Origin: Bacillota bacterium
GTDB lineage: Bacteria; Bacillota; Clostridia; Peptostreptococcales; Anaerovoracaceae
Assembly: GCA_017432345.1 (NCBI GenBank)
Contig: JAFRJI010000026.1
Coordinates: 1 to 51,060, forward strand
DNA length: 51,060 bases
Reading direction: 5' to 3'
The first letter of the stretch is position 1. Each line of letters opens with the position of its first letter. Positions 4,228 to 35,909 of this stretch are shown piece by piece. The notes under the pieces are model-generated. The model was given only the letters and a program-made list of their open reading frames with translations, was not told the origin of the DNA and did no database searches. The position numbers and the translations under genes are program-made.

Positions 4228-4329
4228 TTCTTCCGGTCTCCTCTTGTCAGCTATTTAACGTCCTCCGTCATAAAGACTAATCAAAGGGCACTCCTTCCGT
4301 ATGTCATCAAACAACAGAAGTATATGGTC

Positions 4330-4358
4330 ATTATACCACACTGGGTTATCGGAACAAA
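4330..4358 (-). promoter_or_regulatory. Promoter of the 960-aa exoprotein gene
   Basis: On the minus strand the extended -10 TGTGGTATAAT (4330-4340) is preceded 16 bp upstream by TTGTTC. The start codon at 4227 leaves a leader of about 95 nt. Confidence 0.55.
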
Positions 4359-4401
4359 TCACATAGATGCTTTTGGGAGAACTGCTGCCCGTCACAAAAG
4401 C

Positions 4402-4431
4402 AGCAGAGACCGGAATGTTCCGATCTCTGCT
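4402..4431 (-). terminator. Terminator after the DUF6273-like gene
   Basis: A 14-bp stem with one G-U pair (AGCAGAGA...TCTCTGCT arms) and a very short loop is followed on minus by GCTTTTG. It lies 86 nt after the stop at 4517 and just upstream of the next promoter, so it separates the two transcripts. Confidence 0.65.
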
Positions 4432-4516
4432 GTTAGGCGTGTTCCCCGCTTGCCTTGTTGCTTAGTACTCTATTGTCATTTTCGTTTCCGCACATAGCCT
4501 GAATGTCCGTTACCAG

Positions 4517-6364: not shown

Positions 6365-6421
6365 CGATTTTATCCTCCTCCATTATCAAATCCAATATAG
6401 TTCACGTACAGGATTATGGTC

Positions 6422-8905
6422 CTACTTTCTGATCTTTACTTTCTTTTGGTTCAACGCCTTTCCGAGAATGACTTTGCTTTCACCGGTGATCCGGTTGGTC
6501 ACCTTAGTGTACGGCTGGACTTTGAAGTAGTATGTCTTTCCTTTCCTGAGTTTCTTCAGGGTGAACTTCTTCGCTTTCGCGGACACCTTCTTCGTCTTCA
6601 CACCTTTCTTGAAGTTTTTGCTCGTGCTGCAGCTGATCTTATATCCGGTGACACCGGAGGCTGCTTTCCACCTGACCAGTGCTTTCTTCCCTTTCAGGTT
6701 GTTCGCGCTGGTTACCTTCGTTGATTTGGCTGCAGCCTTGCCCTGAGAGATCACATCGTCCGCGGCCGCAAGTTTGCTGACCGTCTCCTCTGAAACGAGC
6801 ATCAGCTCCTCATCTGTCAGCGCCAGATAGGCGTTGATGATATAATCAACGAGGTTTTCGTCTGCGAGAGTCACGGGATCCGGCAGCAGCTGCGCCAATG
6901 CCTCAGTAGACGGTTTCATAGTGCCCTCAGCGTCTTTGAACACGATATTGCCGGAATATAGGATATCTTCGGTCTGACCTGGGGAAAGCTCTTCGACCAA
7001 CATTATAGATGTGATCGCCTCATCCGTAGCCGGCAACCACGGATAAAACTTCCCGGTTTTCCTGCTGCTGTCCATATCAGTCAAAACTACCTGCTGCATT
7101 CCGTAGGAATATCCGTTGGAACAAGCCATGTTTCTAAGAATATTATAGATCGAATTCTGTGCTACCTGGGTAAAGGTCACCTCTACAGGGTGCACCGCAT
7201 CATTATTTCCGTTAACGACCTTCCCGGAAATACCTCCGGCATTCACGGAACCGCCGGTGATAACCACGGTCGAATGATCGGGATCATGACCACCGATGTC
7301 GTATTGATGATTGTCGCTTCCAGCTCTGGCGATCACGGTTCCACCGCTGATCTCGATGCTGCATTTATTATCACCGCCGTTCTTGTTCTCTGTCGTTCCA
7401 ATTCCGGGTGCCTCCTCGGAACCATACGCATCAATAATTCCGCCGGAGATCTTCACCTCACAGCTAATACCCAGACCATTCCCCATGCCGGCTCCTATAG
7501 CAGGACCTCCGTTAGACTTACTGGTCGCATGCACTATACCACCTGTTATCTGCAGATCTTCTACACCGGCGCCCTCTCCGGAACCGATCGCTGCGCCAAG
7601 CCCATGATTGATTGCCGTTACCACACCGCCGTTGATATGGATCCCTGTCGCGGAGACATGATTGCCTCCGAGATCATAATCAATCTGACCGGAACCGATG
7701 CATGCCCCGGTATGTTTGCCACTGTTCTCTGCATATACATCACCGCCATTGATTACGATATTTTTGGCAAGGGACGCGTTGCCAGCACCGATCACCGCAC
7801 CGTAGCTTTGCGCATAAGCCTTGATATCACCGTCATTGATCGTGATGTCCTGCACGTCGCAACCGGCTCCTCCTCCTATTGCAGCCGCGCTCTCTGCGCT
7901 GGTTTCAGCCGTGATCTCGCCGCCGTTGAATTCGATGTTTCCCATGAGATTCCTATTGAAATACGGCACGGAGCCAATCGCTGCAGACAAGTCGCCAGCC
8001 TTGGCGACAATGCTTCCGGGGACACTCTCATTCTCTGTATCAAATACAAGCTTCGATTTCATGCCTTCTTTACGAATGGCGGGGCACATATAACCTTCCA
8101 GATAGACAGAAGCATCCTCTTTGGAAAGAATACGGATCGTACCATCCACATCCCTGACCCAGATCGGCGCTGTACGTGTACCGGCGTAGGATCTGGCGGT
8201 GCAGTTGATATTCAGACCATCCGCCAGATAAAGATCGACATCTCCGCTCTCTACGATGACACGGACAGTTTCGCTTTGTCCTTTTAGGGTGAAGTCACCC
8301 GGCTCACTGATGTATACCGTTGTATTCCAACCCGCTTTGCTGACATCATATACATCCCCAGGCTTCATTTTGACCGTGTACCAGATTCTCAGATCATTCT
8401 CGGGATTCGCCTCGGCTTCTTCTTCGCTGATGAACTCGTCCTCAGTGACGGTCAGTGTTACCTTGAGGGTATCATATTGAGGGGTTATGCCTCTCTCGAC
8501 CAGCTCTGTGGGGTTCTCAATGGATAAGCTGAGAACGGCTTGCCCGCAGCTTTCTGCCTGCCAGCCCCATCCATGCTCATTCCGCGAAACGCGGACCACA
8601 TCTCCGGTCCCGGGATCTTTTTTCTGCTGTTCTGTGACCACCACATCGTCGACCGAATAATCGAAGTTCTCCGATGACATATCCGGCCCGCTGACGGTAA
8701 CGATATTCACTTCGCTGTACCCACTCATCGTCCCCAGACTGACTGCAGAGTCATAGACATGGTAATCAAACGTATAGGCACTATCGCCGGCATTCCCATC
8801 CTCCGCGTACACGGATACCGCCAGGCCCAACATCGCGATGCCAAGAAGCGCGACCGTCAGACCCGCTGCTGCGACAATAGGTATCCGTTTTTTGATCCTC
8901 TTCAT
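6422..8905 (-). CDS. Secreted right-handed beta-helix protein with C-terminal Fn3-like domain
   Basis: An 827-aa exported protein (signal peptide 1-34, ending VYA). Residues 200-560 hold ten or so degenerate repeats of about 25-30 residues with AAIGGG / IGSG / ISGG-type turns and alternating small hydrophobics, typical of a carbohydrate-binding-like right-handed beta-helix. Residues about 660-720 form a helical linker (LPDPVTLAD...), then a lysine-rich Fn3-like domain closes the protein with KKVKIRK. The linker and Fn3 domain are close homologues of the C-terminus of the gene at 9487-12696, also at nucleotide level. The ATG at 8905 follows AAGGAGGAAGAACCG. A surface adhesin or glycan-binding role is inferred from fold only; no catalytic residues are visible. 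Confidence 0.8.
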   Translation of the reverse strand: MKRIKKRIPIVAAAGLTVALLGIAMLGLAVSVYAEDGNAGDSAYTFDYHVYDSAVSLGTMSGYSEVNIVTVSGPDMSSENFDYSVDDVVVTEQQKKDPGTGDVVRVSRNEHGWGWQAESCGQAVLSLSIENPTELVERGITPQYDTLKVTLTVTEDEFISEEEAEANPENDLRIWYTVKMKPGDVYDVSKAGWNTTVYISEPGDFTLKGQSETVRVIVESGDVDLYLADGLNINCTARSYAGTRTAPIWVRDVDGTIRILSKEDASVYLEGYMCPAIRKEGMKSKLVFDTENESVPGSIVAKAGDLSAAIGSVPYFNRNLMGNIEFNGGEITAETSAESAAAIGGGAGCDVQDITINDGDIKAYAQSYGAVIGAGNASLAKNIVINGGDVYAENSGKHTGACIGSGQIDYDLGGNHVSATGIHINGGVVTAINHGLGAAIGSGEGAGVEDLQITGGIVHATSKSNGGPAIGAGMGNGLGISCEVKISGGIIDAYGSEEAPGIGTTENKNGGDNKCSIEISGGTVIARAGSDNHQYDIGGHDPDHSTVVITGGSVNAGGISGKVVNGNNDAVHPVEVTFTQVAQNSIYNILRNMACSNGYSYGMQQVVLTDMDSSRKTGKFYPWLPATDEAITSIMLVEELSPGQTEDILYSGNIVFKDAEGTMKPSTEALAQLLPDPVTLADENLVDYIINAYLALTDEELMLVSEETVSKLAAADDVISQGKAAAKSTKVTSANNLKGKKALVRWKAASGVTGYKISCSTSKNFKKGVKTKKVSAKAKKFTLKKLRKGKTYYFKVQPYTKVTNRITGESKVILGKALNQKKVKIRK

Positions 8906-9116
8906 CGGTTCTTCCTCCTTTTCTATTCAGACCTTTCTTCACCGTGATCTGACCAGCCTTTGCAAGGCTTTTGATAGATTTATTGTATTACTATATTACT
9001 ACACTAAAGCATTTTCCATGCCAATTCTGCTTTTGAAAAGGTATTTTTCGGAATCTTCGATAAATACCGCCTTTCCCGCCCCAAAAGACTCTCTGCGCCA
9101 AGGCTGGACAGATCAC

Positions 9117-9172
9117 TTTGAACCGTTTTCGGTTCAAATACGTCGGACTTATGAAACGTTATCGGTTCAAAT
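9117..9172. repeat. 22-bp palindrome plus a third half-site
   Basis: TTTGAACCG-TTTT-CGGTTCAAA is a perfect inverted repeat at 9117-9138. The half-site CGGTTCAAAT (9130-9139) recurs at 9163-9172, 33 bp away, about three helical turns. It looks like an operator, roughly 210 bp upstream of the 827-aa gene, but no cognate regulator is in the window. Confidence 0.45.
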
Positions 9173-9223
9173 CGTCCTTGTTCAGTCGTAGTTCGTGCAT
9201 TATTCACCCGAAACTAACAGCTT

Positions 9224-9326
9224 TGTAAGTAATGCTTTGGTTTTTCTCTTTCTTACTAAGAGTGCTGACCAGATTATTTACCCCTAATGAATGTTGGCAA
9301 ACCCTAAAAGGCCCTGATTACTTACA
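9224..9326. repeat. 10-bp inverted repeat with 83-bp interior
   Basis: TGTAAGTAAT at 9224-9233 is the exact reverse complement of 9317-9326. The interior is AT-rich and not coding. It could be a long-range RNA stem or the remains of a small element; target-site duplications are not obvious. Confidence 0.3.
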
Positions 9327-9338
9327 TACATTTGAGTA

Positions 9339-9373
9339 AACGCAACAGACTCCCGATGGGAGTCTTTTGCGTT
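9339..9373 (-). terminator. Long hairpin, possible terminator of the 1069-aa gene
   Basis: AACGCAA-c-AGACTCCC, loop GAT, GGGAGTCT-t-TTGCGTT: a 15-bp stem with one mismatch, 114 nt after the stop. A second small hairpin (GGGAG-AGAA-CTCCC, 9376-9389) lies between. The following T-run is poor. The stem core recurs exactly at 12948-12984. Confidence 0.45.
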
Positions 9374-9486
9374 ATGGGAGAGAACTCCCTTATTGATACA
9401 ATGCTTCGTTGCAATCAAAAGCGACATAACGTTACGGCAGATGCAAACAGGAATTCATGCAAAGGCTGGTCTGTCCTCTGCTGATC

Positions 9487-12400
9487 CTACTTTTTGATCT
9501 TCACTTTCTTTTTGTTCAATGCCTTTCCGAGAACGACATTGCTCTTCCCTGTGATGCGGTTGGTCACCTCGGTATAAGGCTTGACCTGAATGTAATAGAT
9601 CTTTCTTTTCTTGAGCTTCTTCAGAGTGATCTTTTTCGCGGTCTTTTTCGCCTCCTTCGTTTTCACGCCTTTCTTGAAGTTCTTTTTTTTGCTGTAAAGG
9701 ACCTGATAGCCGGTAACATCAGGAGTCGCCTGCCACTTGACCAATACTTTCCTGCCCTTCTTATTCTTCGCTTTGACTACCTTTGTTCCTTTCGCCTCCG
9801 CTTTGCCTGTAATGATCACATCTTCGGCACTGGCCAGCTTTTGCAGATCCATTTCTGAGAAAATCGCTTTCTGGTTGTCGGTCAGTGCGAGATAGGCATT
9901 GACTGCCGCGTCGACGACCGCCTCATCGTCCAATGTGACAGGCTCCGGCAACCCCGCAATCTGTTCTGACACCGTCAACACTGCGATGGTGTCAACAGCC
10001 TTGTTCAGCTTATTCACCATTTCTGCAGGAATTACCTTTTGCTGAGACTCCTCCAGCGCGTCAAAGTCTCCTTTGACCTTGTCCACCTGCTCCTTGTCGG
10101 CCAGGGTGACCGGATCCGGGAGAGCTCGGATCTCATCCGCGACTATCTCGGCCGGTGTCGGAGCTTCTATCGTGAGCCTGCCTGCTGCATATTTGATGTT
10201 GTAGTTGCCGGTCACATTCGTTTTATTTGAATCGATGATCTTCGCAGCGTCCGGCGTGATCGTTTTGGCGGTTGTATCCGCCGTCAGGGTGATTTCATCA
10301 AGCACGTGTCCGTTCAAAGCACCGGTCAATTCCGCCTGATCCGTCCCTTCTTTGATGCTGTCTCCCTCTTTGATCGTCTGATCTTTTGCTGTGACCGTGG
10401 CATCTTTCTTTACAATCGTTGCTTCTACGACAGCTGGATCTGAGTCACCGTAGGACTTGTCGCCGGCAGCTTTGTACCAGACATAATAGGTGGCCGCATC
10501 GGTACCGGTTGGGATGTCGCTGCTCCATCCTTCGGTCGGCGCTGCGGTCCCGTCAATTCCGATGGCATACTGCATCGTGCCGTTTTTCGCCTCACCTGCT
10601 GTGACCAGCTCCTGAGCCGACCCGGAGTAGGTCGGGTTTGTTGCCGCCGGAGGATTCATTACAGTCGCTGCGTCTTTCCAGCACGCGGTTACGGTGACGA
10701 CTCCGTCTGTAGCGCAATTACTGGATATTACAACTTTATTGAAGTTTGCATCATCCGGATAGAATATCCCATCGACTCCACTCATTTTCCAGTGGTCGAA
10801 GGCTTTGCCCGGCTTCGCTTCAAATGTGCATTTCGGGAATGTATATTCCTGGCCTTCTCTTACGGTGACTGGCGTCATTGTGCCAGTACCACCGTCACCG
10901 GGATCATATTTGAGCTCATATGAAGCAGTGGGCTGTTCGTTTTTTTCAAGCTGCGCCTCACCATCTGTTGTGCTGGAAACGCTGTAGTTATTATCGTCGC
11001 TGGTAAAGATATCGGCTGCGGTTTTGCCTTCTGGAAGTTTACCGGACAGGCCGTCGGTGAATACACCGGTCATAACATTGGAACCATTTACCGGATAAAC
11101 ACCGATACGTGCGTTACCGCTGATAGTAGTTCCGTCGCTTACCTTGATCTTTACCTCGCTGCTCCCTTCGAGCAAAAGGTTATGCTCCGTATTCCCTGTG
11201 ATCACAGGCGCGATGCCGCTTCCTTGGAGAAAGACCCCTGTTGTATCCAAGTGCATATTGTGTATATATACACCTGTTTTGTTGTTCGTGATCGAACCGT
11301 TTTCAATTATTGTCGTTCCATATGAATCAACACCAGAAACGCTGTTGTTCTTTATATCGCCATTATACAGAGTAAAGACCGTGCCTGAACTTAAATCCAC
11401 ACCGTCGTAACAAAAAGAGATCTCCCCATTATACATATTGAATTTTGAATCTGATTCATTCAGGTCTACGCCGTAGTCATCACAATTTGAGATTTTTCCG
11501 CCATACATGTTGAATGTTGTCGATTCTTCATCAAGAAGTACACCATCCTCTTCTTTACTTGATATTACACCGGCAGACTCTCCAGTACCTTCATCATATA
11601 GATTGAGCGTACTATTTCTTTTATTTAGAACTATAGTACCATCATCATCCTCTTCTGAAGTAATATTGTGTTTGTTGAGACATAGATTGGTCGTGCCTGC
11701 GGGAACATCCCAGGAGTCGCTACCTAAATCCACGTCCTGGGTCAGATAATAGCTGCCTTCTTCGTCAGGCAAGCTGTCAGAAGCAGTCCATGGCTTGAAA
11801 GTGATATCACCATGATTATGCTCTGCTGTTGCCTTCATGCACCGATAGCGATCACCGGTGTAAGCGGTTCCATCGCCTGTAGCAAGCAACTCCGTCGGTG
11901 GATCTGTGTTCGCATCGCCATAGAGCTTCACGTCCTTACCGAGGATGAGATCACCGTGTGAATGGGAAGTAAACCCTGCGCCAATACCTTTCCCGCCATT
12001 TCCAGCTTTTGCTGTTACGGTTCCGCCATAGATGGTAACGTTACCGCCATTGGCATATTCTCCACCGCCTATACCCGCTGCCGAGACTCCGCCTCTTGCC
12101 GTGACATTTCCGTTGTAGATGGTAACTGTTCCGCCTTTCCCACCGAGTTCATCATAATCAAACCCGCCACCGATACCTGCTGCCCAATCTCCTCCCTGAG
12201 CTATGATTGTTCCACCATGGATGTTAATTGTTCCGGCTTCAGAATTATCGTTTGTCCCTATCGCCGCATAGCTTTTCCTTTCTACATCACTAATATGACA
12301 TTCTATATTAAGTTCACCCGTATCAGCGCTCTGCCCATAGATATTGAGCGTATCATTTTTACCGACAATAATACCATAATACGTTGCGTTCAGCTTTGCT

Positions 12401-12696
12401 CCATCACAGAGGATGAGGTTAAGTGTACCGTTGACTTTGATGTCAGAAAGAGCATCGATATCATTTCCATCGACCACATACCACCCGCTTATTCCTTCAT
12501 AATCGACAAAATCGTCGGGAAACACAGTATAGTCCGATACCGTCTTAATTTCGCTGGATAATGTTCCATTGCTGTAAGTATATTCAACATACGAAACCGG
12601 CTCATTTGCCCATACCGTCGCGCTCATCCCCAGCATCATTGCCAGCATGAACAAAGTGCCCAATATAATCCTTATAGCTGTTCTTTTATGTTTCAT
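9487..12696 (-). CDS. Large secreted beta-helix / InlB-like / MBG-like protein
   Basis: A 1069-aa exported protein (signal peptide 1-30, ending VWA). Residues about 40-280 hold GGG-type beta-helix repeats (AAIGTND, AAGIGGG, AGIGGGEY), about 380-540 a second helix with MYGGKIS/MYNGEIS repeats. A segment near 600-690 resembles the InlB B-repeat (YDPGDGGTGT...FDHWKM...ACWKD), followed by an MBG-like sandwich (about 695-840: YSGSAQELV, GNYNIKYAAG). Two LPDPVTL/LPEPVTL helical linkers and a lysine-rich Fn3-like domain ending KKKVKIKK close it. The last 150 residues are closely related to the 827-aa neighbour. It is a likely multidomain adhesin; anchoring is unclear because no LPxTG or SLH motif is present. 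Confidence 0.82.
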   Translation of the reverse strand: MKHKRTAIRIILGTLFMLAMMLGMSATVWANEPVSYVEYTYSNGTLSSEIKTVSDYTVFPDDFVDYEGISGWYVVDGNDIDALSDIKVNGTLNLILCDGAKLNATYYGIIVGKNDTLNIYGQSADTGELNIECHISDVERKSYAAIGTNDNSEAGTINIHGGTIIAQGGDWAAGIGGGFDYDELGGKGGTVTIYNGNVTARGGVSAAGIGGGEYANGGNVTIYGGTVTAKAGNGGKGIGAGFTSHSHGDLILGKDVKLYGDANTDPPTELLATGDGTAYTGDRYRCMKATAEHNHGDITFKPWTASDSLPDEEGSYYLTQDVDLGSDSWDVPAGTTNLCLNKHNITSEEDDDGTIVLNKRNSTLNLYDEGTGESAGVISSKEEDGVLLDEESTTFNMYGGKISNCDDYGVDLNESDSKFNMYNGEISFCYDGVDLSSGTVFTLYNGDIKNNSVSGVDSYGTTIIENGSITNNKTGVYIHNMHLDTTGVFLQGSGIAPVITGNTEHNLLLEGSSEVKIKVSDGTTISGNARIGVYPVNGSNVMTGVFTDGLSGKLPEGKTAADIFTSDDNNYSVSSTTDGEAQLEKNEQPTASYELKYDPGDGGTGTMTPVTVREGQEYTFPKCTFEAKPGKAFDHWKMSGVDGIFYPDDANFNKVVISSNCATDGVVTVTACWKDAATVMNPPAATNPTYSGSAQELVTAGEAKNGTMQYAIGIDGTAAPTEGWSSDIPTGTDAATYYVWYKAAGDKSYGDSDPAVVEATIVKKDATVTAKDQTIKEGDSIKEGTDQAELTGALNGHVLDEITLTADTTAKTITPDAAKIIDSNKTNVTGNYNIKYAAGRLTIEAPTPAEIVADEIRALPDPVTLADKEQVDKVKGDFDALEESQQKVIPAEMVNKLNKAVDTIAVLTVSEQIAGLPEPVTLDDEAVVDAAVNAYLALTDNQKAIFSEMDLQKLASAEDVIITGKAEAKGTKVVKAKNKKGRKVLVKWQATPDVTGYQVLYSKKKNFKKGVKTKEAKKTAKKITLKKLKKRKIYYIQVKPYTEVTNRITGKSNVVLGKALNKKKVKIKK

Positions 12697-13141: not shown

Positions 13142-13297
13142 TTACTGTTCTTCCCTTGCGCGTTCCTTCTCCCGCAACGCCGCTTCCAGTCCGGTCACTG
13201 CCGCAAAAGGCATAAACTGCTTGGCGCGCAGTTCGATCGGCATCGGGTTCCGCCCCGGCGGCATTGTTTTTTCTTTACCGTTCTTCTTATTCTCCAC
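13142..13297 (-). CDS. YolD-like small protein
   Basis: A small basic/acidic protein of 51 aa with the signature RAKQFMPFAAVTGLEAAL followed by a charged helix, as in YolD-like proteins that accompany UvrX-type Y-family polymerases in Bacillota. I chose the GTG at 13297 because GGAGG lies 8 nt upstream; an ATG at 13348 would extend the frame 51 bp further into the polymerase gene without a ribosome binding site. With the GTG start the gene overlaps the polymerase stop by 11 bp, which suggests translational coupling. Its biochemical role in the family is not settled; partnership with the polymerase is inferred from this arrangement. Confidence 0.75.
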   Translation of the reverse strand: MENKKNGKEKTMPPGRNPMPIELRAKQFMPFAAVTGLEAALREKERAREEQ

Positions 13298-14630
13298 TCT
13301 TATGTCCTCCGATTTGGCGATTCCGTTCCATTCCCGTCGATTCCTCATGCAGGTTCGAGCCTTTGACCATTGCGTTCCTGCCGTATTTTTCTTTGATATC
13401 GATCATTGCCTGCTGGACCTTCTTGTCTTTTTCCAGAACTTCCTGACGGTCCTTGCTGTGGGATGCTTCGGCGACATCGAACAGGCTGATCTGCCGCGTG
13501 CCCTCGTCAGGACGCACGTTGTTGCAGGAAACCGTCACGCGGCGGATGTCCCGGCTGCGGTCCATGATCCGCTCATACAGTGCCACGACTTCCGGAACGA
13601 TGACAGACTCTTCGCAACTGCCGCCTTCAAAGCGGACCGTACCGCCTTCGCGCGGGCCGTAACTACCGTCACGGGTGCCATCACTGCCTTCCCTATGACT
13701 TCTGGCCTGGCCCGACTTAGCATAGCCCACCGAAATCGTCACCGAATCGGCGACAAGGCCTTTGCGGACCAGATCGAGACACATTTGATCCGTCATCTCA
13801 CGGATGATGGTGCGGCCTTCTTCGAATGTGTAGTCGCGCATCAGCACCTGCCCGTTGGACAGAGAATTGGTCTTCGGTTTATACGCCTTGATATCGGCAA
13901 TCGTCACCGGCTCCCTGCCCCATGCGTGGTCGATCAAAAGCTCCGCATCCACGCCGAACATGCGGTACAGCATCTCCTCGTCGGCCTTTGCAATATCACC
14001 CATGGTATAGAGGCCGACCTTTTCGAGACGCCGCGCTGTCCCCGGACCGATGCGCCAGAAATCCGTTAGCGGTCGGTGATTCCATAACGTCTCGCGGTAA
14101 GTTTCCTCATCCAGTTCGCCGATGAAGTCCGGTGCGTGTTTGGCGGTGATGTCCAGCGCGATTTTTGTAAGATAAAGGTTCGTTCCAACGCCGCAGGTAG
14201 CGCGCACGCCGATCCGGTCGGTGATCTCTTTCATAACGCGCACCGCCAGCTCCCGGGCAATGCAGTTATACACATGCAGATACGCCGTCACATCGATGAA
14301 CGCCTCGTCGATGGAATAGACATGGATGTCATCCTTCGAGAAGAAATCCAGATAGATGTCATAGATCTCCGCCGCGTAGTCGATGTACTTCTGCATCCGT
14401 GGCGGGGCCATGATGTACCGGATGTTTTTCGGTATTTCAAAAACCCGGCATCGGTTCGGGACGCCGAGTTTTTTCATGGAAGGCGAAACGGCAAGACAAA
14501 TCGTCTTGTCGCTTCGCTCCGGATCTGCCACCACGAGATTGGTCGTCATCGGGTCGAGACCCCGTTCTACGCATTCTACCGATGCGTAGAACGATTTCAG
14601 ATCAATGCAAATGTATTGTCTATTTCGCAT
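13287..14630 (-). CDS. Y-family DNA polymerase (UvrX/UmuC-like)
   Basis: A 447-aa translesion polymerase. The N-terminus has CIDLKSFYASVECVERGLDP, the UmuC/UvrX form of motif I with the catalytic Asp and steric-gate aromatic. SIDEAFIDVT is the second catalytic motif; WRIGPGTARRLEKVG is the helix-hairpin-helix of the thumb. The little-finger region (about 230-350) contains a Gly/Ser/Arg-rich insertion (HREGSDGTRDGSYGPREGG), probably a disordered loop. It overlaps the preceding M28 gene by 11 bp and the YolD-like gene by 11 bp, so all three are likely one transcript. No LexA-like operator was recognised upstream. I cannot distinguish DinB from UmuC naming safely. Confidence 0.9.
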   Translation of the reverse strand: MRNRQYICIDLKSFYASVECVERGLDPMTTNLVVADPERSDKTICLAVSPSMKKLGVPNRCRVFEIPKNIRYIMAPPRMQKYIDYAAEIYDIYLDFFSKDDIHVYSIDEAFIDVTAYLHVYNCIARELAVRVMKEITDRIGVRATCGVGTNLYLTKIALDITAKHAPDFIGELDEETYRETLWNHRPLTDFWRIGPGTARRLEKVGLYTMGDIAKADEEMLYRMFGVDAELLIDHAWGREPVTIADIKAYKPKTNSLSNGQVLMRDYTFEEGRTIIREMTDQMCLDLVRKGLVADSVTISVGYAKSGQARSHREGSDGTRDGSYGPREGGTVRFEGGSCEESVIVPEVVALYERIMDRSRDIRRVTVSCNNVRPDEGTRQISLFDVAEASHSKDRQEVLEKDKKVQQAMIDIKEKYGRNAMVKGSNLHEESTGMERNRQIGGHKSGE

Positions 14631-23416: not shown

Positions 23417-23675
23417 ACTGCGCCAACTCCTCAAAGACCCGGTCCAGCTGCTCTTCACTGAGCTCGACGTGCAGGTTCCTCTGCAGCGCCTTCTTCTTTC
23501 TGGCCAGCGCCATGCATTTGCTGTCGCGGCAGAGATACACGCCCCGTCCCGGCGCCCGGCCGGTCGGATCGACGGTGAGCTCACCCTCATAGCAGGCCAC
23601 CCGGATCATTGAATTCTTCGGTTTTGATTCCATGCAGCCGACACAGCGGCGCATTGGCGTCTTCCTAGTTTTCAT
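23406..23675 (-). CDS. ylxR: YlxR/RnpM-family RNA-binding protein
   Basis: An 89-aa DUF448 protein with the diagnostic RRCVGC...K..MIR and GRAPGRGVYLC blocks. The family binds RNA and has been reported to modulate RNase P. The start at 23675 is preceded by GAGG at 6 nt and overlaps the nusA stop by 11 bp. A downstream ATG (MRRCVGC) is an alternative start. Confidence 0.92.
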   Translation of the reverse strand: MKTRKTPMRRCVGCMESKPKNSMIRVACYEGELTVDPTGRAPGRGVYLCRDSKCMALARKKKALQRNLHVELSEEQLDRVFEELAQYEE

Positions 23676-24768
23676 TGACGTCCTCTTCGTAGTAATCGTC
23701 TTCGTAATCTTCGTCATCCAGCTCTTCGTCATCGCCGAAGTACTGGGTATGGCTCTTGATGTCGATCTTCCATCCGCAAAGTCTCGCGGCCAGACGCACG
23801 TTCTGTCCTTCCTTGCCGATGGCCAGGGAAAGCTGGTAATCCGGCACGACCACCGTGGCAGCCTTCTCTTCCTCATCGATCATGACCTCTTCGACCTTAG
23901 CCGGGCTAAGGACGTTCTTGATGAGGATCTGCGGATCTTCATCCCATGTGGTGATGTCGATCTTCTCGCCCCAAAGCTCGTCGACGATGTTGCGGACTCT
24001 GCTGCCGCCCGTTCCGACACAGGCGCCGACCGGATCCACATCTTCGTCTTCAGTATATACGGCGATCTTCGTCCGGGAGCCCGCTTCTCTGGCGATGCTC
24101 TTGATCTCCACGATCCCGTCTTCGATCTCCGGAACTTCCAGTTCGAACAAACGCTCCACGAATCCTGGGTGCGTCCGGCTCAGGAAGATCTGCGGCCCCT
24201 TGGTGCTCTTGCGGACATCCATGATGTAGGCCTTGATGCGGTCATTGACCTTGTAACGTTCCCCGGCCGCTCTCTCTCCCGCGACGAGGATGCCTTCCGT
24301 GTTGCCGATATTGACAAAAATAGTGTCGTTGCTGATTCTCTGGACAACGCCCGTGATCAGGTCGCCCTGACGGTTGATGTAGTTCTCATAGACCATGCCG
24401 CGTTCCGCCTCACGGATTCGCTGCACGACGACCTGCTTCGCCGTCTGCGCCGCGATACGTCCAAAATTCCTCGGTGTAACCTGATATTCAACGATATCAC
24501 CCACCTGATACCGCGGATCGATCTCCAGAGCCTCTTCAATCGAGATCTCCGTCAAATCGTCCTCGACTTCTTCCACAACGTTCTTCTGCATGAGTACATC
24601 GACTTCGCCTGATTCTTCGTTCATCTCCACTCTGACATTGGATGCCGTCCCGTAGTTCTTCTTGTAGGCCGAGACCAATGCCGACTCGATGGCGTCCAAG
24701 AGCATTTCCTTAGGGATGCCTTTCTCTTTCACGAGATCATTGATGGCACTCATAAATTCACTATTCAT
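23665..24768 (-). CDS. nusA: Transcription termination/antitermination factor NusA
   Basis: A 367-aa elongation factor. The N-terminal RNA polymerase-binding domain (about 1-125) is followed by an S1 domain (GDLITGVVQRIS...) and two KH domains (VGACVGTGGSRVRNIVDEL and LAIGKEGQNVRLAARL). The acidic tail ends the protein, as in Bacillota; the long proteobacterial C-terminal repeats are absent. It lies 12 bp after rimP. Confidence 0.97.
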   Translation of the reverse strand: MNSEFMSAINDLVKEKGIPKEMLLDAIESALVSAYKKNYGTASNVRVEMNEESGEVDVLMQKNVVEEVEDDLTEISIEEALEIDPRYQVGDIVEYQVTPRNFGRIAAQTAKQVVVQRIREAERGMVYENYINRQGDLITGVVQRISNDTIFVNIGNTEGILVAGERAAGERYKVNDRIKAYIMDVRKSTKGPQIFLSRTHPGFVERLFELEVPEIEDGIVEIKSIAREAGSRTKIAVYTEDEDVDPVGACVGTGGSRVRNIVDELWGEKIDITTWDEDPQILIKNVLSPAKVEEVMIDEEEKAATVVVPDYQLSLAIGKEGQNVRLAARLCGWKIDIKSHTQYFGDDEELDDEDYEDDYYEEDVNEN

Positions 24769-24780
24769 CTTATTTTCCTC

Positions 24781-25269
24781 CTATATAACAACTGCCAGGC
24801 TTGCTTTCGCTATCTCCGCAAGCCGCAGATCCCAAACTTTGTCGTTGTGGTCCGTGACGGTCACGCGCCAGTCGCCTTCCCCGTCGCTTTCAAAGGCCTG
24901 CAGGACGCCTTCGATCTTCTTGGTCCCGTCCTTGCCTTTGTAGAGCTTGATCTCTACTTCCTGTCCCACATACCGCTCATAGTGTTCCGGCCTCAGCAGC
25001 GGCCGGTCCATGCCGGGTGAACTGACTTCCAGGTAATAGTTCTGGTCGATCGGGTCCTCCGCGTCCAGTTTCCCGCTCAAATAGCGGCTCACCTTCTCGC
25101 AGTCCTCCGTCCCGATGTACCCGTCCCCATCCGCGCGGTCGATGTACACGCGCAGGAACCAGTCCCGTCCCTCCTTGACGAATTCACAGTTGTAGAGCTC
25201 GTATCCGTTCTCCGCCAGGAAACCGTCCAGCAGCTCCGCTGTGACCGCCGTGATCGTCTTCTTTGCCAT
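24781..25269 (-). CDS. rimP: Ribosome maturation factor RimP
   Basis: A 162-aa factor for 30S assembly with EVSSPGMDRPL, the family signature, at about residue 85. I chose the ATG at 25269 (MAKKTITAV) because an in-frame extension to 25374 would run through the hairpin at 25296-25317. A short AGGTG site lies 5 nt upstream. Confidence 0.93.
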   Translation of the reverse strand: MAKKTITAVTAELLDGFLAENGYELYNCEFVKEGRDWFLRVYIDRADGDGYIGTEDCEKVSRYLSGKLDAEDPIDQNYYLEVSSPGMDRPLLRPEHYERYVGQEVEIKLYKGKDGTKKIEGVLQAFESDGEGDWRVTVTDHNDKVWDLRLAEIAKASLAVVI

Positions 25270-25295
25270 ACAGCACCTGCTTACTTCATAAAAGA

Positions 25296-25317
25296 AGAGT
25301 GGGCCACTACCCACTCT
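25296..25317 (-). terminator. Hairpin in the rimP leader (terminator or attenuator)
   Basis: AGAGTGGG, loop TAGTGG, CCCACTCT followed by TCTTTT on minus, between polC and rimP and only 26 nt from the rimP start. It could end part of the polC transcript or regulate the rimP-nusA-infB part. I recall similar hairpins ahead of rimP in other Bacillota but cannot verify this here. Confidence 0.6.
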
Positions 25318-25376
25318 ACGATAACTTACTATTGAATCCTCGACTATAATATCACACGGAACAAGGAAATGCAAGC

Positions 25377-28300
25377 CTAGAAAAAGCTGATCTGCGCGGT
25401 CTCCGGCAGCCCTTCCAGAACGCCATGCTCCCGCAGCTGCTCCAGTACGGTCTTGTTGACGCGGCCCCGTTCACAGACGTCTTCCACCGTCTCGTACGGG
25501 CGCTTCGCGTACTCTTCTGCAAAACCCTTAGCGGCACTTTCGCCCATGCCTTCGATGGCGTTGAACGGCAGCAGGACTTTGCCGTCGTAGACCATGAACT
25601 TCATGGCGTCGGAAATGCCCAGCCGCGCCGGCGCGAACTCATATCCTCTGGCGTACATTTCGTAAGCCACCTCCAGAACGGTGATGTCCGCCTGCTCCTT
25701 CTTGGTCGCGTCCTGCCCCATGGCGATGATCTGGTTCAGCCGCTCTTCCACGGCTTTCTGCCCGGCCAGAATGACCTTGGCGTCGAAGTTGGCGATCTTG
25801 GTCGTAAAGTACGCCGCGTAGAACGCCACCGGGTAATAGACCTTGTAATAGGCTTCCCGCATGGACATCAGCACGTACGCCACCGCGTGCGCCCGCGGGA
25901 ACATGTACTTGATCTTCTTGCAGGAGTCGATGTACCAGTCCGGCACGTCGTGTTCCCGCATCAGCGTCTCCTGCTCTTCGGTCAGGCCCTGGCCCTTACG
26001 GACTTTCTCCATGATCGTGAAGGCGTCCCCGTTCGGCAGGCCGTGCTTCCGCAGGTAGTTCATGATGTCGTCCCGGGTGGCGATGGCTTCCCGCATAGTG
26101 GTCACACCGCCCACGACCAGATCCTGCGCGTTGCCCAACCAGACGTCGGTCCCGTGTGACAGCCCGGATATCCGGACCAGCTCCTCGATGGTCGTCGGCT
26201 GGATGTCATCCAGCATCTGCCGGACGAACGGCGTTCCGAATTCGTGGATCGCGTAGCTGCCGTGGGTGACTTTATCGTCCGGGTCCTTGATGTCCAGTCC
26301 TTCAATGCCCACAAAGATTGTCATGACCTTATCGTCCTTGATCGGTACCGACAGCGGGTCCACGCCCGTCATATCCTTCAGATGGCGGATCATGGACGGG
26401 ATATCGTGTCCCAGTATATCCAGCTTCAGCAGGTTCTTGTCGATGGAATGGTAATCGAAGTGCGTCGTGACGATGTCCGATTTCACATCGTTGGCCGGGT
26501 GCTGGACCGGGCAAAATTCATAGATTTCGTGCCCTTTCGGGACGATGATGACGCCGCCCGGATGCTGTCCGGTGGTCCGCTTCACCCCTTCGCAGCCCTG
26601 CCCCAGCCGCTCGATCTCAAAGCGGTTGGCCGTCACGCCTTTTTCTTCAAAGTATTTATTGACAAACCCGAAGGCCGTGTTCTCCTTGATGGTGCCGATG
26701 GTCCCCGCCTTGAAGACGTTCTCCGCCCCGAAGATCTCTTCCACGTACTTCTGGGCTTTGCTTTGGTATTCGCCGGCGAAGTTCAGGTCGATATCGGGTT
26801 CTTTGTTGGCTTCGAATCCGAGGAAGGTCTCGAACGGGATGGTGAACCCCTCTTTGTTGTACGGCGTGCCGCAGACCGGGCACACCTTGTCCGGCATGTC
26901 GACGCCGCAGTCGTACTCGCCCGTTTCATCCCACTCCAGATTTTTGCAATTCGGGCAGATGTAGTGGGCCGGCAGCGGGTTGACCTCTGTAATGCCGGAC
27001 GCCGTGGCCGCAAAGGACGAACCGACGGAACCCCGGGATCCGACCAGATACCCTTCCTCGATGGATTTTTGCACGAGCATCTCGGCAGACCGGTACATGA
27101 CGGCGTACCCGTTGTCGATGATGGAGTTGAGTTCTTTGTCGAGGCGCTGGCGGATCGGCTGCGGCAGCGGATCGCCGTACATATCCGCGACCCGTTTCTC
27201 GCAGACCTTCCGGAGGTATTCCTCGGCGCCCTCGATCTTCGGCGGGAATTTGCCCTTCGGGACCGGCATGATGGATTCGATCTGATCCGCAATCATATTG
27301 GTGTTCTCGATGACGACCTTGTGCGCCGTCTCTTCCCCCAGATATGCGAATTCTTCCATCATTTCATCCGTGGTCCGGAAATACAGTCCCTCGCCGCTCT
27401 CCGCGTCTTTGTAGCCCTGTCCGGCCATGAGGATGTTCCGGTAGATGGCTTCCTCCGGATCGAAATAGTGGGCGTCGCAGGTGGCGCAGACCGGCCTATC
27501 GTATTTCTCGCCCAGGGCGACGATCCGGCGGTTGAAATTCCGCAGGTCTTCTTCTTCCGCGACCAGCCCTTCCCGAACCATGAACCGGTTATTGATCAGC
27601 GGCTGGATCTCCAGGTAATCGTAGAATTCGACGATCTTCCGGAGTTCCTCTTCCGGGGCGCCGCTCCGGATGGCCCGGAACAGTTCGCCCGCTTCACAGG
27701 CCGATCCCAGGATCAGCCCTTCCCGGTAGGCGCTCAGCACGCTGCGCGGGATCCGCGGCCGTTTATAGAAATAATCCAGATGGGACTTGGAGACCAGCTT
27801 GTACAGGTTCTTCAGTCCCTTCCGGTTCTTTGCCAAAATGATGATGTGATAGGTTCCGTGGGCTTTGTAATCGATGGTCCCGTCGTCGGCGATGCAGCCT
27901 TCGTCATCGTACAGATAGCCTTCGCAGCCGTAGAGGATCTTGATCTTCCCGGACTCGGAGGATGCATCCGGAAAGGCCTGCACGACGCCGTGGTCCGTGA
28001 TGGCGATGGCCTTGTGGCCCCACTCCGCCGCCCGTTTGACCAGTTCCTTCGTGTCGTTGAGGCCGTCCATGGCGCTCATCTTCGTATGCGCGTGCAGTTC
28101 CACGCGCTTCTTCGGATAGGTATCCACCCGCTGCGGGGTATCGGCCTTCTCCAGGCTGTCGGCCATGACCGTAACACACTTGTCGAAAATGTCCCACTGC
28201 GCCATGCCCTGCACTTTGATCCCGCTTCCCGCCGGCAGGTGCTCCTTGATGTCGTCCCATTTGTCGTTGGATACAAAGGCCTTGACCGGGATGCTGGTGG

Positions 28301-28820
28301 TCTTGTTGGTCACGTAGATCGCCGCCAGCTTGCTATCGTTCTTCGTGGTTCTGGCGTCGAGTTTGAAGACGGTCCCTTCCAGCGCCACCTTGCCGCTCTC
28401 GGAGGTGATCTTCTCCAGCGGGGTCACTTCCTCCGTGATGGCGCTGCCCATGACGAGATTGCCTCTGACCGGGACGTACTTCCGCCGGCGGCTGCGCTTC
28501 GCGCCGCCATTGCCGTTCTTACCGGCTGCCGCCTTCTCCTCCTTCGGTTCCTTTGCTTTCGGCTGCTCGACTTCGCTGGCCTTCACGTCCTTATACCGGA
28601 GCTGCAGATCCACGGTCCGGATCCCGTCGATGTTCCGGACCAGATCTGTCTTGATCTGCTCGGCAGTGGCGGCGGACAAAATCAAATTAAGCTCCATCTC
28701 CAGCGTCAGCGTCATGTTCTTGCTGTTGATCGAAGCTTGTATCAATTCTGCCTTCAGGTCGTCTGCCGTAAATTTATCCAGTTTTGAAAAATCAATGTTC
28801 TTTTCGAGGATCTGTCTCAT
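25377..28820 (-). CDS. polC: PolC-type DNA polymerase III alpha subunit lacking the exonuclease domain
   Basis: The 1147-aa replicative polymerase of low-GC Gram-positives, about 290 aa shorter than the usual 1430-1460. An N-terminal domain and OB fold (about 1-235) lead into an uninterrupted PHP domain with all nine likely metal ligands: His243, His245, Asp252, His277, Glu300, His325, Cys375, Asp449, His451. In typical PolC the DEDD 3'-5' exonuclease is inserted between the positions of Glu300 and His325; here only about 20 residues lie there and no DxETTG motif exists. The palm has Asp676 and Asp678 (PDIDLNF) and Asp801 (LKLDILGHD), with a Cys4 zinc finger at C622/C625/C647/C650. There is no frameshift. 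The start overlaps ispG by 4 bp. Confidence 0.97.
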   Translation of the reverse strand: MRQILEKNIDFSKLDKFTADDLKAELIQASINSKNMTLTLEMELNLILSAATAEQIKTDLVRNIDGIRTVDLQLRYKDVKASEVEQPKAKEPKEEKAAAGKNGNGGAKRSRRRKYVPVRGNLVMGSAITEEVTPLEKITSESGKVALEGTVFKLDARTTKNDSKLAAIYVTNKTTSIPVKAFVSNDKWDDIKEHLPAGSGIKVQGMAQWDIFDKCVTVMADSLEKADTPQRVDTYPKKRVELHAHTKMSAMDGLNDTKELVKRAAEWGHKAIAITDHGVVQAFPDASSESGKIKILYGCEGYLYDDEGCIADDGTIDYKAHGTYHIIILAKNRKGLKNLYKLVSKSHLDYFYKRPRIPRSVLSAYREGLILGSACEAGELFRAIRSGAPEEELRKIVEFYDYLEIQPLINNRFMVREGLVAEEEDLRNFNRRIVALGEKYDRPVCATCDAHYFDPEEAIYRNILMAGQGYKDAESGEGLYFRTTDEMMEEFAYLGEETAHKVVIENTNMIADQIESIMPVPKGKFPPKIEGAEEYLRKVCEKRVADMYGDPLPQPIRQRLDKELNSIIDNGYAVMYRSAEMLVQKSIEEGYLVGSRGSVGSSFAATASGITEVNPLPAHYICPNCKNLEWDETGEYDCGVDMPDKVCPVCGTPYNKEGFTIPFETFLGFEANKEPDIDLNFAGEYQSKAQKYVEEIFGAENVFKAGTIGTIKENTAFGFVNKYFEEKGVTANRFEIERLGQGCEGVKRTTGQHPGGVIIVPKGHEIYEFCPVQHPANDVKSDIVTTHFDYHSIDKNLLKLDILGHDIPSMIRHLKDMTGVDPLSVPIKDDKVMTIFVGIEGLDIKDPDDKVTHGSYAIHEFGTPFVRQMLDDIQPTTIEELVRISGLSHGTDVWLGNAQDLVVGGVTTMREAIATRDDIMNYLRKHGLPNGDAFTIMEKVRKGQGLTEEQETLMREHDVPDWYIDSCKKIKYMFPRAHAVAYVLMSMREAYYKVYYPVAFYAAYFTTKIANFDAKVILAGQKAVEERLNQIIAMGQDATKKEQADITVLEVAYEMYARGYEFAPARLGISDAMKFMVYDGKVLLPFNAIEGMGESAAKGFAEEYAKRPYETVEDVCERGRVNKTVLEQLREHGVLEGLPETAQISFF

Positions 28821-29866
28821 TCTTTTTTGTCTTTCGTTTTCGCCAATCGGATCAGTTCATCGATGATGTCTTCTTCTTTTACTTTGCGGATGATCTGGCC
28901 GTCCGCGAACAGCAGGCCTTCGCCCTTGCCGCAGGCGACGCCGATGTCCGCGCCCTTGGCTTCGCCCGGCCCGTTGACCGCGCAGCCCATCACGGCGATC
29001 TTAATCGGTCCCGTCAGTTCCGCCGCGCGCCGCTCGACGCCTTCCGCGATCCGCTCCAAGTCCACCTCGGTCCTGCCGCAGGTCGGACAGGATACGATCT
29101 CCACGTTATTCCTGCGGATGCCCAACGCCGCCAGCAGGGATTTTGCAAAAATCACTTCCTCCACCGGGTCCGCGGTCAGCGAGACGCGCAGTGTATCACC
29201 GATGCCTTCCAGGAGTAACGCACCGATGCCAGCAGCCGATTTGATCTTGCCCATGGACGGCGTTCCCGCCTCTGTGACGCCGATGTGCAGCGGACGGTCG
29301 CAGGCCGCGTCCACGATCTTGTACGCGTCGTAATTCATCTGGACGTCGGAGGCCTTCAGGGAAATGACGATGTCATCGAAGTCGAACCGCTCCAACAGCT
29401 GTACGTTCCGCAGGGCGCTTTCCGCCAGTCCCTGCGCGGTGACGTTGCCGTATTTTTCCAGGATGTCCCGTTCCAGCGAACCGGAATTGACCCCGACGCG
29501 GATCGGCACGTGGCACTGTTTGGCCTTGTCGACCACCGCCTTGACCTTCTCTTCGGAGCCGATGTTGCCCGGATTGATGCGGATCTTGTCCGCCCCGGCG
29601 TCCATGGCCGCGATGGCCAGCCGGTAATCGAAATGGATGTCCGCCACCACCGGGATCGGAGCCTTTTGCTTGATCTCCTTCAGGGCCGCGGCGGATTCCA
29701 TATCCGGCACGGTGAGACGGATGATCTCGCAGCCGGCTTCCTCCAGGCGCCGGATCTGCTCCAGGCTGGCTTTGACGTCGGCGGTCTTGGTATTGCACAT
29801 GGACTGGATGCTGACGGGAGCACCCCCTCCAATGGTGATATTTCCAACTTGTACGCTTTTTTTCAT
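28817..29866 (-). CDS. ispG: (E)-4-hydroxy-3-methylbut-2-enyl-diphosphate synthase
   Basis: A 349-aa iron-sulfur enzyme of the MEP isoprenoid pathway that converts MEcPP to HMBPP. The TIM barrel occupies the first 250 residues; the [4Fe-4S] ligands are in SCPTCGR and MGCAVNGPGE. It lies 18 bp after rseP and overlaps polC by 4 bp. With dxr two genes upstream, this operon supplies two MEP steps. Confidence 0.96.
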   Translation of the reverse strand: MKKSVQVGNITIGGGAPVSIQSMCNTKTADVKASLEQIRRLEEAGCEIIRLTVPDMESAAALKEIKQKAPIPVVADIHFDYRLAIAAMDAGADKIRINPGNIGSEEKVKAVVDKAKQCHVPIRVGVNSGSLERDILEKYGNVTAQGLAESALRNVQLLERFDFDDIVISLKASDVQMNYDAYKIVDAACDRPLHIGVTEAGTPSMGKIKSAAGIGALLLEGIGDTLRVSLTADPVEEVIFAKSLLAALGIRRNNVEIVSCPTCGRTEVDLERIAEGVERRAAELTGPIKIAVMGCAVNGPGEAKGADIGVACGKGEGLLFADGQIIRKVKEEDIIDELIRLAKTKDKKE

Positions 29867-35138: not shown

Positions 35139-35909
35139 TTAGCCGTAGATTTTGCGATTGATCACCGACGCGATGTACGCGGCGCCGAACCCGTTGTCGA
35201 TATTGACGACGGATACACCGTTGGCGCAGCTGTTCAGCATGCTGAGCAGCGCCGACAGCCCGCTGAAGTTGGCACCGTATCCGACGCTGGTCGGCACTGC
35301 GATCACCGGCGCGTCCACCAGACCGCCGACGACGCTGGCCAGCGCGCCTTCCATGCCGGCCACAACGATGACAACGTCGGCCTGACGGATGATTTCCAGT
35401 TTATCGAACAGGCGGTGGATGCCGGCAACCCCCACGTCAAAGATCCGACGGACGTCATTTCCGAGGATCTCGGCGGTGACCGCCGCTTCTTCCGCCACCG
35501 GGATATCGGCCGTACCGGCGCTGACCACGGTAACGCAGCCTTTTGCACTCTTATCGCTTGCCAGGGCCGGGATCTCGATGATGCGGGCGGCCTTGTGATA
35601 GACGGCCTGCGGCAGCGCCTCGGCTACGCAGGCGTAGTCGTCTTCGGTCGCTCTGGTCCCCATGAGTCCGCAATCCGTCTCCTGCTGACAGGCAGCCAGT
35701 TCCAGAAAGATGTCGCGGATCTGTTCCTTCGTCTTGCCCTCGCAGTAGATCACTTCCGGAAATCCGGTCCGGATCGCCCGGTGGTGATCCACATTGGCAA
35801 AGCCCAGTTCCTTATATGGAAGCTCCCGTAGAAGCTCCATGGCTTCCTCGGGCTTGATCTTCCCCTGTTCGACCTGCTCCAGAATGTCTTTAATGTACAA
35901 TTCGTTCAT
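35139..35909 (-). CDS. larB: Nickel-pincer cofactor biosynthesis protein LarB
   Basis: A 256-aa protein of the PurE/AIR-carboxylase-like family. The N-terminal helical part (1-100) is followed by the PurE-like Rossmann domain with VVSAGTADIPVAEEA, VVIVVAGMEGALASVVGGLVDAPVIAVPTSVGYG. LarB carboxylates and hydrolyses nicotinic acid adenine dinucleotide in the first step of the nickel-pincer nucleotide used by lactate racemase-type enzymes. larC and larE are not in the window. The start overlaps the GTPase gene by 20 bp with AGGAG upstream. Similarity to PurE is expected and does not make it a purine gene, given the extended N-terminus. Confidence 0.9.
   Translation of the reverse strand: MNELYIKDILEQVEQGKIKPEEAMELLRELPYKELGFANVDHHRAIRTGFPEVIYCEGKTKEQIRDIFLELAACQQETDCGLMGTRATEDDYACVAEALPQAVYHKAARIIEIPALASDKSAKGCVTVVSAGTADIPVAEEAAVTAEILGNDVRRIFDVGVAGIHRLFDKLEIIRQADVVIVVAGMEGALASVVGGLVDAPVIAVPTSVGYGANFSGLSALLSMLNSCANGVSVVNIDNGFGAAYIASVINRKIYG

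Follow-up and report, generated by a model that had tools for sequence, protein, structure and literature searches.

In canonical PolC polymerases, a DEDDh 3'–5' exonuclease domain (Exo) of about 190 residues sits within the PHP domain. What, then, proofreads for a PolC from which this domain is missing? The question is raised by the polC gene on a 51,060-nucleotide stretch of DNA from a Bacillota bacterium (assembly GCA_017432345.1, contig JAFRJI010000026.1), which is called the window here. A preliminary description had read the gene product as a PolC without Exo and had considered the layout rare and possibly undescribed. We found the absence to be real and inherited, and the architecture to have been described already in 2013 (Timinskas et al., Nucleic Acids Res, 2013; PMC3919608; this and the other papers cited are drawn on through parts of their text). 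Our analysis adds new members and a wider spread than reported, and the best candidate for the proofreader is the intact PHP domain, one of the two options raised in the preliminary description.

A PolC without the exonuclease domain

The two features that define the case are as follows.

25377..28820, minus strand: polC, PolC-type DNA polymerase III alpha without Exo (profiles, alignments and predicted model)
27849..27920, minus strand: junction at the Exo site, residues 301–324, between PHP strands 294–304 and 323–330 (sequence, alignment and model)

The open reading frame (ORF) encodes 1147 amino acids (aa), starts with ATG and has no internal stop codons. The protein scored 1427.6 bits against the NCBIfam equivalog PRK00448 (cut-off 873) and 1308.4 bits against TIGR01405 (cut-off 1043.45); both matched as two stretches, the better of which begins at residue 316. 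Its domain order is that of PolC (OB N-terminal to PHP, zinc finger, palm, helix-hairpin-helix and C-terminal clamp motif), and it is a full PolC-type DNA polymerase III alpha, most likely the primary chromosomal copy. A Pfam scan matched PHP, DNA_pol3_alpha, finger and HHH_6 and found no exonuclease domain, and an Exo profile built from Exo-bearing relatives scored only –1.6 bits. Between Glu300 and His325, the fifth and sixth PHP ligands, lie 24 residues, compared with about 20 in the preliminary description. Because the PHP domain contains no DEDDh Exo, the protein represents an Exo-less variant and not the canonical architecture. The residues that flank Exo in Exo-bearing relatives are kept at the junction (YLLDD...IDYK..T.H).

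In an AlphaFold2 model (31 rows; mean predicted local distance difference test score [pLDDT], 85.9; predicted template modelling score, 0.70), the junction formed a short loop between the two strands, with a mean pLDDT of 77 at residues 311–320. A Foldseek search with this model returned 3f2b first (template modelling score 0.95 over the target, root mean square deviation 2.7, 48% identity), followed by 3f2c and then by the Exo-bearing 9qpc. Compared by sequence with solved structures, the protein again matched Geobacillus kaustophilus PolC (3f2b) best, from residue 130 to the end.

Inheritance and distribution

All 61 genomes searched (the window's own, a 51-contig assembly, and 60 relatives) showed some match to the window PolC; in several the gene lay in pieces, and three of the same genus (G001, G028 and G032) yielded part of PolC or DnaE only. 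The 24-residue junction, in frame, was common to 29/29 same-genus relatives fetched, which are separate assemblies (30 loci including the window's own). The best-matching named records were those of Mogibacterium and Emergencia, so that the lineage, one of Clostridia, probably belongs to their family. Within the order, 27/27 family members fetched were Exo-less and 13/13 from other families were Exo-bearing; six more family members, found via their Exo, carry it in PolC (L126–L130 and L132), and 7/92 family genomes had Exo in a frame of PolC length (1302–1467 aa). The preliminary description had held that relatives with Exo in place at this locus would count against it. Such relatives do exist, but they reflect an evolutionary difference and not an assembly error. 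A supposed Exo-less case outside the family (G079) was rejected: its short frame is cut off by the end of the contig, and 211 residues of Exo are there.

We further analyzed a phylum-wide draw, in which 105/139 genomes had a PolC match. Exo was absent from 47/80 PolCs fetched, the remainder left out being the window's own genome, four already included, two fragments and others that were mostly same-genus repeats; class and phylum genomes without a PolC match are not in the counts. With this share and the 2013 report, the layout can be called neither rare nor undescribed. The Exo-less share among class loci L183–L242, which were chosen partly for short frames, gives no frequency. In one single-contig genome (G108, locus L169), polC runs over two frames, one of them of 1062 aa with a match that reaches position 608 in a query of 832 residues; the cause is a frameshift or an error in sequencing.

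Dropping L057, L072 and L091, in which PHP letters are missing, and the window's two rows from 297 aligned rows left 292 complete relatives (288 distinct, given four identical frame pairs). The spacing between ligands 5 and 6 was 12–39 residues in 139 Exo-less and 204–347 in 153 Exo-bearing relatives, with no intermediates.

Repeated changes of exonuclease state

A FastTree phylogeny of 268 rows required at least 18 changes between presence and absence of Exo, and with midpoint rooting its Exo-less rows fell into 19 clades. In a more careful tree of 60 rows, whose bootstrap was not fully settled, 14 changes were needed, at least 10 of them forced by well-supported branches. These counts carry no direction. 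A single origin of all Exo-less PolCs was rejected by the approximately unbiased (AU) test (P = 2.5e-11; 19 Exo-less of 38 rows), run on a quick tree with the group defined after the first tree had been inspected. Within the window's family two changes were needed, but the AU test did not reject a single origin there (P = 0.363).

Junction length was often characteristic of a clade: 24 residues in the window's clade (35/42 rows), 23 in f16 (8/8), 21 in f21/f54 (5/5) and 12 in f111 (3/3). It varied from 12 to 20 in one clade of 10. The Exo-less rows of the window's family were placed among Exo-bearing relatives (support mostly 95–100, one branch 81); because of this nesting, and because the junction keeps the Exo-flanking residues, loss of Exo is most likely the direction of change there.

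The PHP metal site

PMC3666897 lists nine metal ligands of G. kaustophilus PolC, and these were matched by order to the window PolC.

27315..28106, minus strand: PHP domain, residues about 239–502 (Pfam PHP, 119.3 bits at 241–400; alignments to 3f2b and DnaE structures)
28092..28094, minus strand: PHP ligand 1, His243; matches G. kaustophilus H346; invariant alignment column
28086..28088, minus strand: PHP ligand 2, His245; matches H348
28065..28067, minus strand: PHP ligand 3, Asp252; matches D355
27990..27992, minus strand: PHP ligand 4, His277; matches H380
27921..27923, minus strand: PHP ligand 5, Glu300; matches E405
27846..27848, minus strand: PHP ligand 6, His325; matches H620
27696..27698, minus strand: PHP ligand 7, Cys375; matches C670
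27474..27476, minus strand: PHP ligand 8, Asp449; G. kaustophilus has N743 here
27468..27470, minus strand: PHP ligand 9, His451; matches H745

All nine are present at the residues that the preliminary description had named, and together they form a predicted metal site with the pattern HHDHEHCDH. HHDHEH[C/H]DH is taken as the 'active' PHP motif in PMC12926913, and the window PolC fits the active-form nine-ligand motif of PHP-proofreading C-family replicases.

The complete pattern was found in 139/139 complete Exo-less relatives (137 distinct frames), every one with Asp at ligand 8, compared with 145/153 Exo-bearing ones (Fisher test, P = 0.0075, with the window's own locus row counted; only suggestive because rows share ancestry). 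Of the eight deviant Exo-bearing rows, four (L179, L228, L232 and L233, from the window's order or class) lack six or seven ligands and four have Asn at ligand 8; the DEDDh site is intact in all eight. Two frames of code f45, L227 (G380; 1705 aa) and L235 (G305; 1646 aa), still match the Exo profile (78 and 66 bits), but none of the five DEDDh residues is left, which makes the domain a dead exonuclease that has been kept; their PHP is intact. Since PHP-deviant rows keep DEDDh and DEDDh-destroyed rows keep PHP, no complete row lacks both.

We compared PHP identity between pairs at equal palm identity, excluding PHP-decayed rows; the pairs are not independent. Exo-less pairs were about 1–3 points higher at palm identities of 55–80%, and below 55% the difference grew to about 5 points.

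What may proofread in place of the exonuclease

On balance, we favor the reading that the intact PHP of Exo-less PolC proofreads in cis, with the PHP of DnaE1 perhaps helping. An ancestor of the lineage would have lost the whole DEDDh domain from its seat in PHP, leaving a PHP loop 5–6 of about DnaE1 length. The nine-ligand site would then bind metal and excise mismatched 3' ends in cis, the role that PHP plays in mycobacterial and Thermus DnaE1. The complete PHP of DnaE1 in the same cell may take on part of this work, and mismatch repair of the MutS type would act afterwards.

Several observations weigh against this reading. Exonuclease activity was not detectable for the PHP of G. kaustophilus PolC, and restoring the missing ligands in E. 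coli PolIII alpha gave no activity distinguishable from contamination (PMC3666897). PHP also serves the structure of E. coli Pol III, again according to PMC3666897, and could therefore be conserved without being catalytic. In Exo-bearing Clostridia, the conservation of PHP is almost as strong, its divergence relative to palm differed little between Exo-less and Exo-bearing PolCs, and at 80–90% palm identity the PHP identity of Exo-less pairs was equal or lower. The pattern in which the two sites are never both lost becomes weak once ancestry is counted, as the PHP-loss events are few. As for the loss itself, a DnaE1-rooted tree (330 columns, weak deep support) placed four Exo-bearing family rows inside the Exo-less group, which makes loss followed by regain possible.

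The DnaE of the window genome (L323, at G000:C51) is 1196 aa long with the PHP pattern HHDHEHCDH, and the nine ligands were also complete in DnaE1 of 19 other genomes. The replicative partner of the window PolC is probably DnaE1 and not DnaE3, because the partner's PHP is conserved and that of DnaE3 is described as disrupted. A third, weaker match to the window PolC is also present in this genome. The loop between ligands 5 and 6 has 24 residues in the window PolC, compared with 20 in its own DnaE1 and the 19 others. With its complete PHP, DnaE1 could be the high-fidelity replicase or a trans proofreader, with PolC no proofreader itself and limited in role, as Timinskas et al. suggested for PolC+DnaE1 bacteria: there, DnaE1 would copy the genome and PolC would serve only special situations, and Exo-less PolCs were cited in this connection (PMC3919608). 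We consider this doubtful, though the best placed of the alternatives, since the palm, zinc finger and clamp motifs, the standard locus and strong conservation in the genus are all kept, and since an idle PHP could decay, yet the ligands are undecayed in Exo-less rows.

Mismatch repair could carry the load instead, if PHP were purely structural and PolC never proofread. MutS_I was matched in 45/49 genus genomes, including the window's own, and the structural function described for the E. coli PHP would fit as well. However, the nine ligands seem unneeded for structure, given that the four rows that have lost six or seven of them are still full-length PolCs, and we regard this explanation as unlikely.

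The preliminary description had also envisaged a DnaQ-like protein acting in trans. Separate DEDDh proteins were sought with the RNase_T family profile PF00929 only. This profile, which leaves other nuclease families aside, gave no match in the window genome (81.8% complete), in 37/49 genus genomes or in 17/18 good ones (at least 90% complete, at most 5% contaminated). The 12 genus genomes with a match include one good genome, by partial matches. Eight of the 14 genus DEDDh loci (L034–L040 and L043) resemble one protein, which we take to be KapD-like; L031–L033 are presumably DnaQ-like, and L041 is a fragment.

In the family, 29/92 genomes had a match, which in 7/29 is or includes the PolC Exo; PolC was read in only some of the 92, and the other 63 were counted by their lack of a PF00929 match. 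In the same order outside the family, 59/59 genomes had a match, in 20 of them a sole one; a genome that has no DEDDh protein besides Exo is left with none once Exo is lost. Among Exo-less genomes of other lineages, 40/64 had an RNase_T-family protein and 24/64 had none (PolC read in 61; G390, G318 and G357 assigned by frame length and family), and a named Exo-less set gave 5/13. Proofreading by a separate DnaQ/DEDDh protein, for which the matching genomes speak, is thus unsupported in the genus and, considering also the matches that are the PolC Exo or the KapD-like protein, highly improbable in our view. An assembly or sequencing artefact, in favor of which only the division of the assembly into 51 contigs could be cited, has practically no chance: the identical junction length in all 29 genus relatives rules it out, and the survey of relatives that the preliminary description had proposed thus excludes misassembly.

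Some DEDDh loci deserve mention in their own right. L041 (G030) has only DEDDh motif I and a secreted-protein-like start, and looks chimeric. In three family genomes, a DEDDh domain follows a Cas2-like N-terminus (L131, L134 and L135), and these are presumably CRISPR adaptation proteins. Two solo DEDDh proteins of Exo-less genomes, L343 (G265) and L349 (G468), match the PolC-Exo profile with E-values of 2.2e-67 and 2.1e-70 and are possibly Exo domains that moved out of PolC. Another solo protein, a DnaQ (L064; 238-aa frame), is encoded within 6 kb of polC but on the other strand in an Exo-less genome that resembles Epulopiscium.

More tentatively, we extend PHP proofreading to a general picture, to which we give slightly less credence than would be even. 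PolC may have abandoned Exo in many independent events, with the older PHP taking over after each of them. The window's genus would stand at the extreme: with no DEDDh exonuclease in either replicative polymerase and, in most genomes, no RNase_T-family protein to supply one, fidelity before mismatch repair would depend solely on PHP sites.

Proofreading by the PHP of PolC is unsettled, as the one reported assay that we found, on the G. kaustophilus enzyme with Asn at ligand 8, showed it inactive. In Exo-less PolCs with a complete PHP the confounding Exo is gone, and a single purified protein with one point mutant would be enough to test the question. Moreover, the repeated changes of Exo provide a natural comparison of mutation rates, and these PolCs bear on the division of work in PolC+DnaE1 replisomes.

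Other domains, locus and window

The remaining domains and neighbors of polC are as follows.

28572..28820, minus strand: N-terminal domain, residues 1–83 (comparison with PolCs of other genera; secondary structure of the model)
28143..28391, minus strand: OB domain, residues 144–226, N-terminal to PHP (3f2b alignment, predicted strands)
26871..26957, minus strand: zinc finger Cys622–Cys650, four Cys (motif read in the sequence)
26787..26795, minus strand: palm PDID motif (675), with Asp676 and Asp678, which we take to be palm acidic residues
26418..26420, minus strand: Asp801 in LKLDILG (KLDILG 799–804), presumably the third palm acidic residue
25404..25604, minus strand: helix-hairpin-helix region, residues 1073–1139 (Pfam HHH_6)
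25380..25394, minus strand: C-terminal sliding-clamp motif QISFF (motif in the sequence)
28817..29866, minus strand: ispG (GcpE), upstream of polC, its stop overlapping the polC start by 4 bases
24781..25374, minus strand: rimP, downstream neighbor of polC (neighborhood reading)
23665..24768, minus strand: nusA, downstream of polC and rimP (neighborhood reading)

The order ispG-polC-rimP-nusA is the standard locus, and an additional, non-primary PolC copy was thought unlikely for this reason. In a scan of named genomes, ranked by likeness to the query, ispG lay upstream on the same strand in 13/19 Exo-less and 36/52 Exo-bearing complete loci with room, and rimP lay downstream in 4/16 and 24/51 loci, respectively, by a window-protein query that is weak across lineages.

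The shortened N-terminus of the preliminary description was confirmed: only 83 aa precede residue 84, compared with 176–208 in seven PolCs from outside the genus, a deficit of nearly 100 residues. The predicted model has a low-confidence linker at residues 86–112, and one of the usual two N-terminal subdomains of PolC seems to be missing. Among genus loci L001–L030, most members have 84–123 aa before residue 84, and seven (L017–L019, L022–L024 and L026) have 177–187, like the PolCs outside the genus; the N-terminus is absent from the frames of L027 and L028. The shortening would be a second such event, inside the genus.

Elsewhere in the window, a Y-family (IMS, DinB/UmuC-like) polymerase is encoded at 13287–14630 on the minus strand, about 11 kb from polC. 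Four large proteins (615–1069 aa) encoded at 1345–12696 (minus strand) match fn3, beta-helix or cadherin domains and are likely exposed at the cell surface. The product of 35139–35909 (minus strand), beside a gene for a dynamin-like GTPase, has an AIR-carboxylase domain preceded by a SHOCT-like motif at the N-terminus. Antisense to polC, which has 58% GC, runs an 847-aa ORF (26244–28787, plus strand); as long antisense frames accompany many window genes, it is probably not a gene.

Comparison with known systems

Timinskas et al. reported that 6% of PolCs lack Exo, and 16% in PolC+DnaE1 systems (Table 2), with Exo-less PolCs found only in Clostridia and Negativicutes, besides one extra copy in Thermotogae (PMC3919608). 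They discussed PHP as a possible proofreader of PolC, noted the strong conservation of its metal site, and stated in 2013 that the PolC+DnaE1 system was without an experimentally characterized example. The window PolC shares with their Exo-less PolCs the domain order, the PHP without Exo, the complete PHP site and the DnaE1 partner. It differs in that every genus member read and most of the family are Exo-less, that most genus genomes are without an RNase_T-family protein, and that the N-terminal domain is shortened in the window's subgroup. A later survey mapped active PHP and DnaQ across bacteria and found mostly three active proofreaders in Clostridia (PMC12926913), and PHP proofreading was suggested for Sporomusa ovata PolC after a PHP mutation in an adapted culture (PMC4632017). 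In the literature searched, mainly outside subscription journals, we found no assay of a naturally Exo-less PolC.

The Geobacillus and Enterococcus PolCs (3f2b and 9qpc) share fold and sequence with the window PolC. In Enterococcus faecium PolC, Exo lies between PHP strands 3 and 4 (PMC12592400). The 3f2b protein was crystallized with Exo removed, so that the window PolC is its natural counterpart; here, however, Exo is absent by evolution, and ligand 8 is Asp instead of the Asn of G. kaustophilus. An engineered Staphylococcus aureus PolC without the N-terminal domain and Exo polymerizes fast (PMC3656037), which indicates that PolC can work without Exo.

With Mycobacterium tuberculosis DnaE1 (PMC5636811), the window PolC shares the nine-ligand PHP site and a loop 5–6 without an inserted exonuclease. 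That loop has 29 residues in the mycobacterial enzyme, where it lines a groove to the PHP site, compared with 18 for Taq and nine for E. coli, and mutating D226, which by order is equivalent to ligand 8, inactivates the mycobacterial PHP (PMC5636811). The two enzymes differ in that OB is C-terminal in DnaE1 (PMC3919608) and N-terminal to PHP in the window PolC, and in that the exonuclease activity of PHP is known for the former and predicted for the latter.

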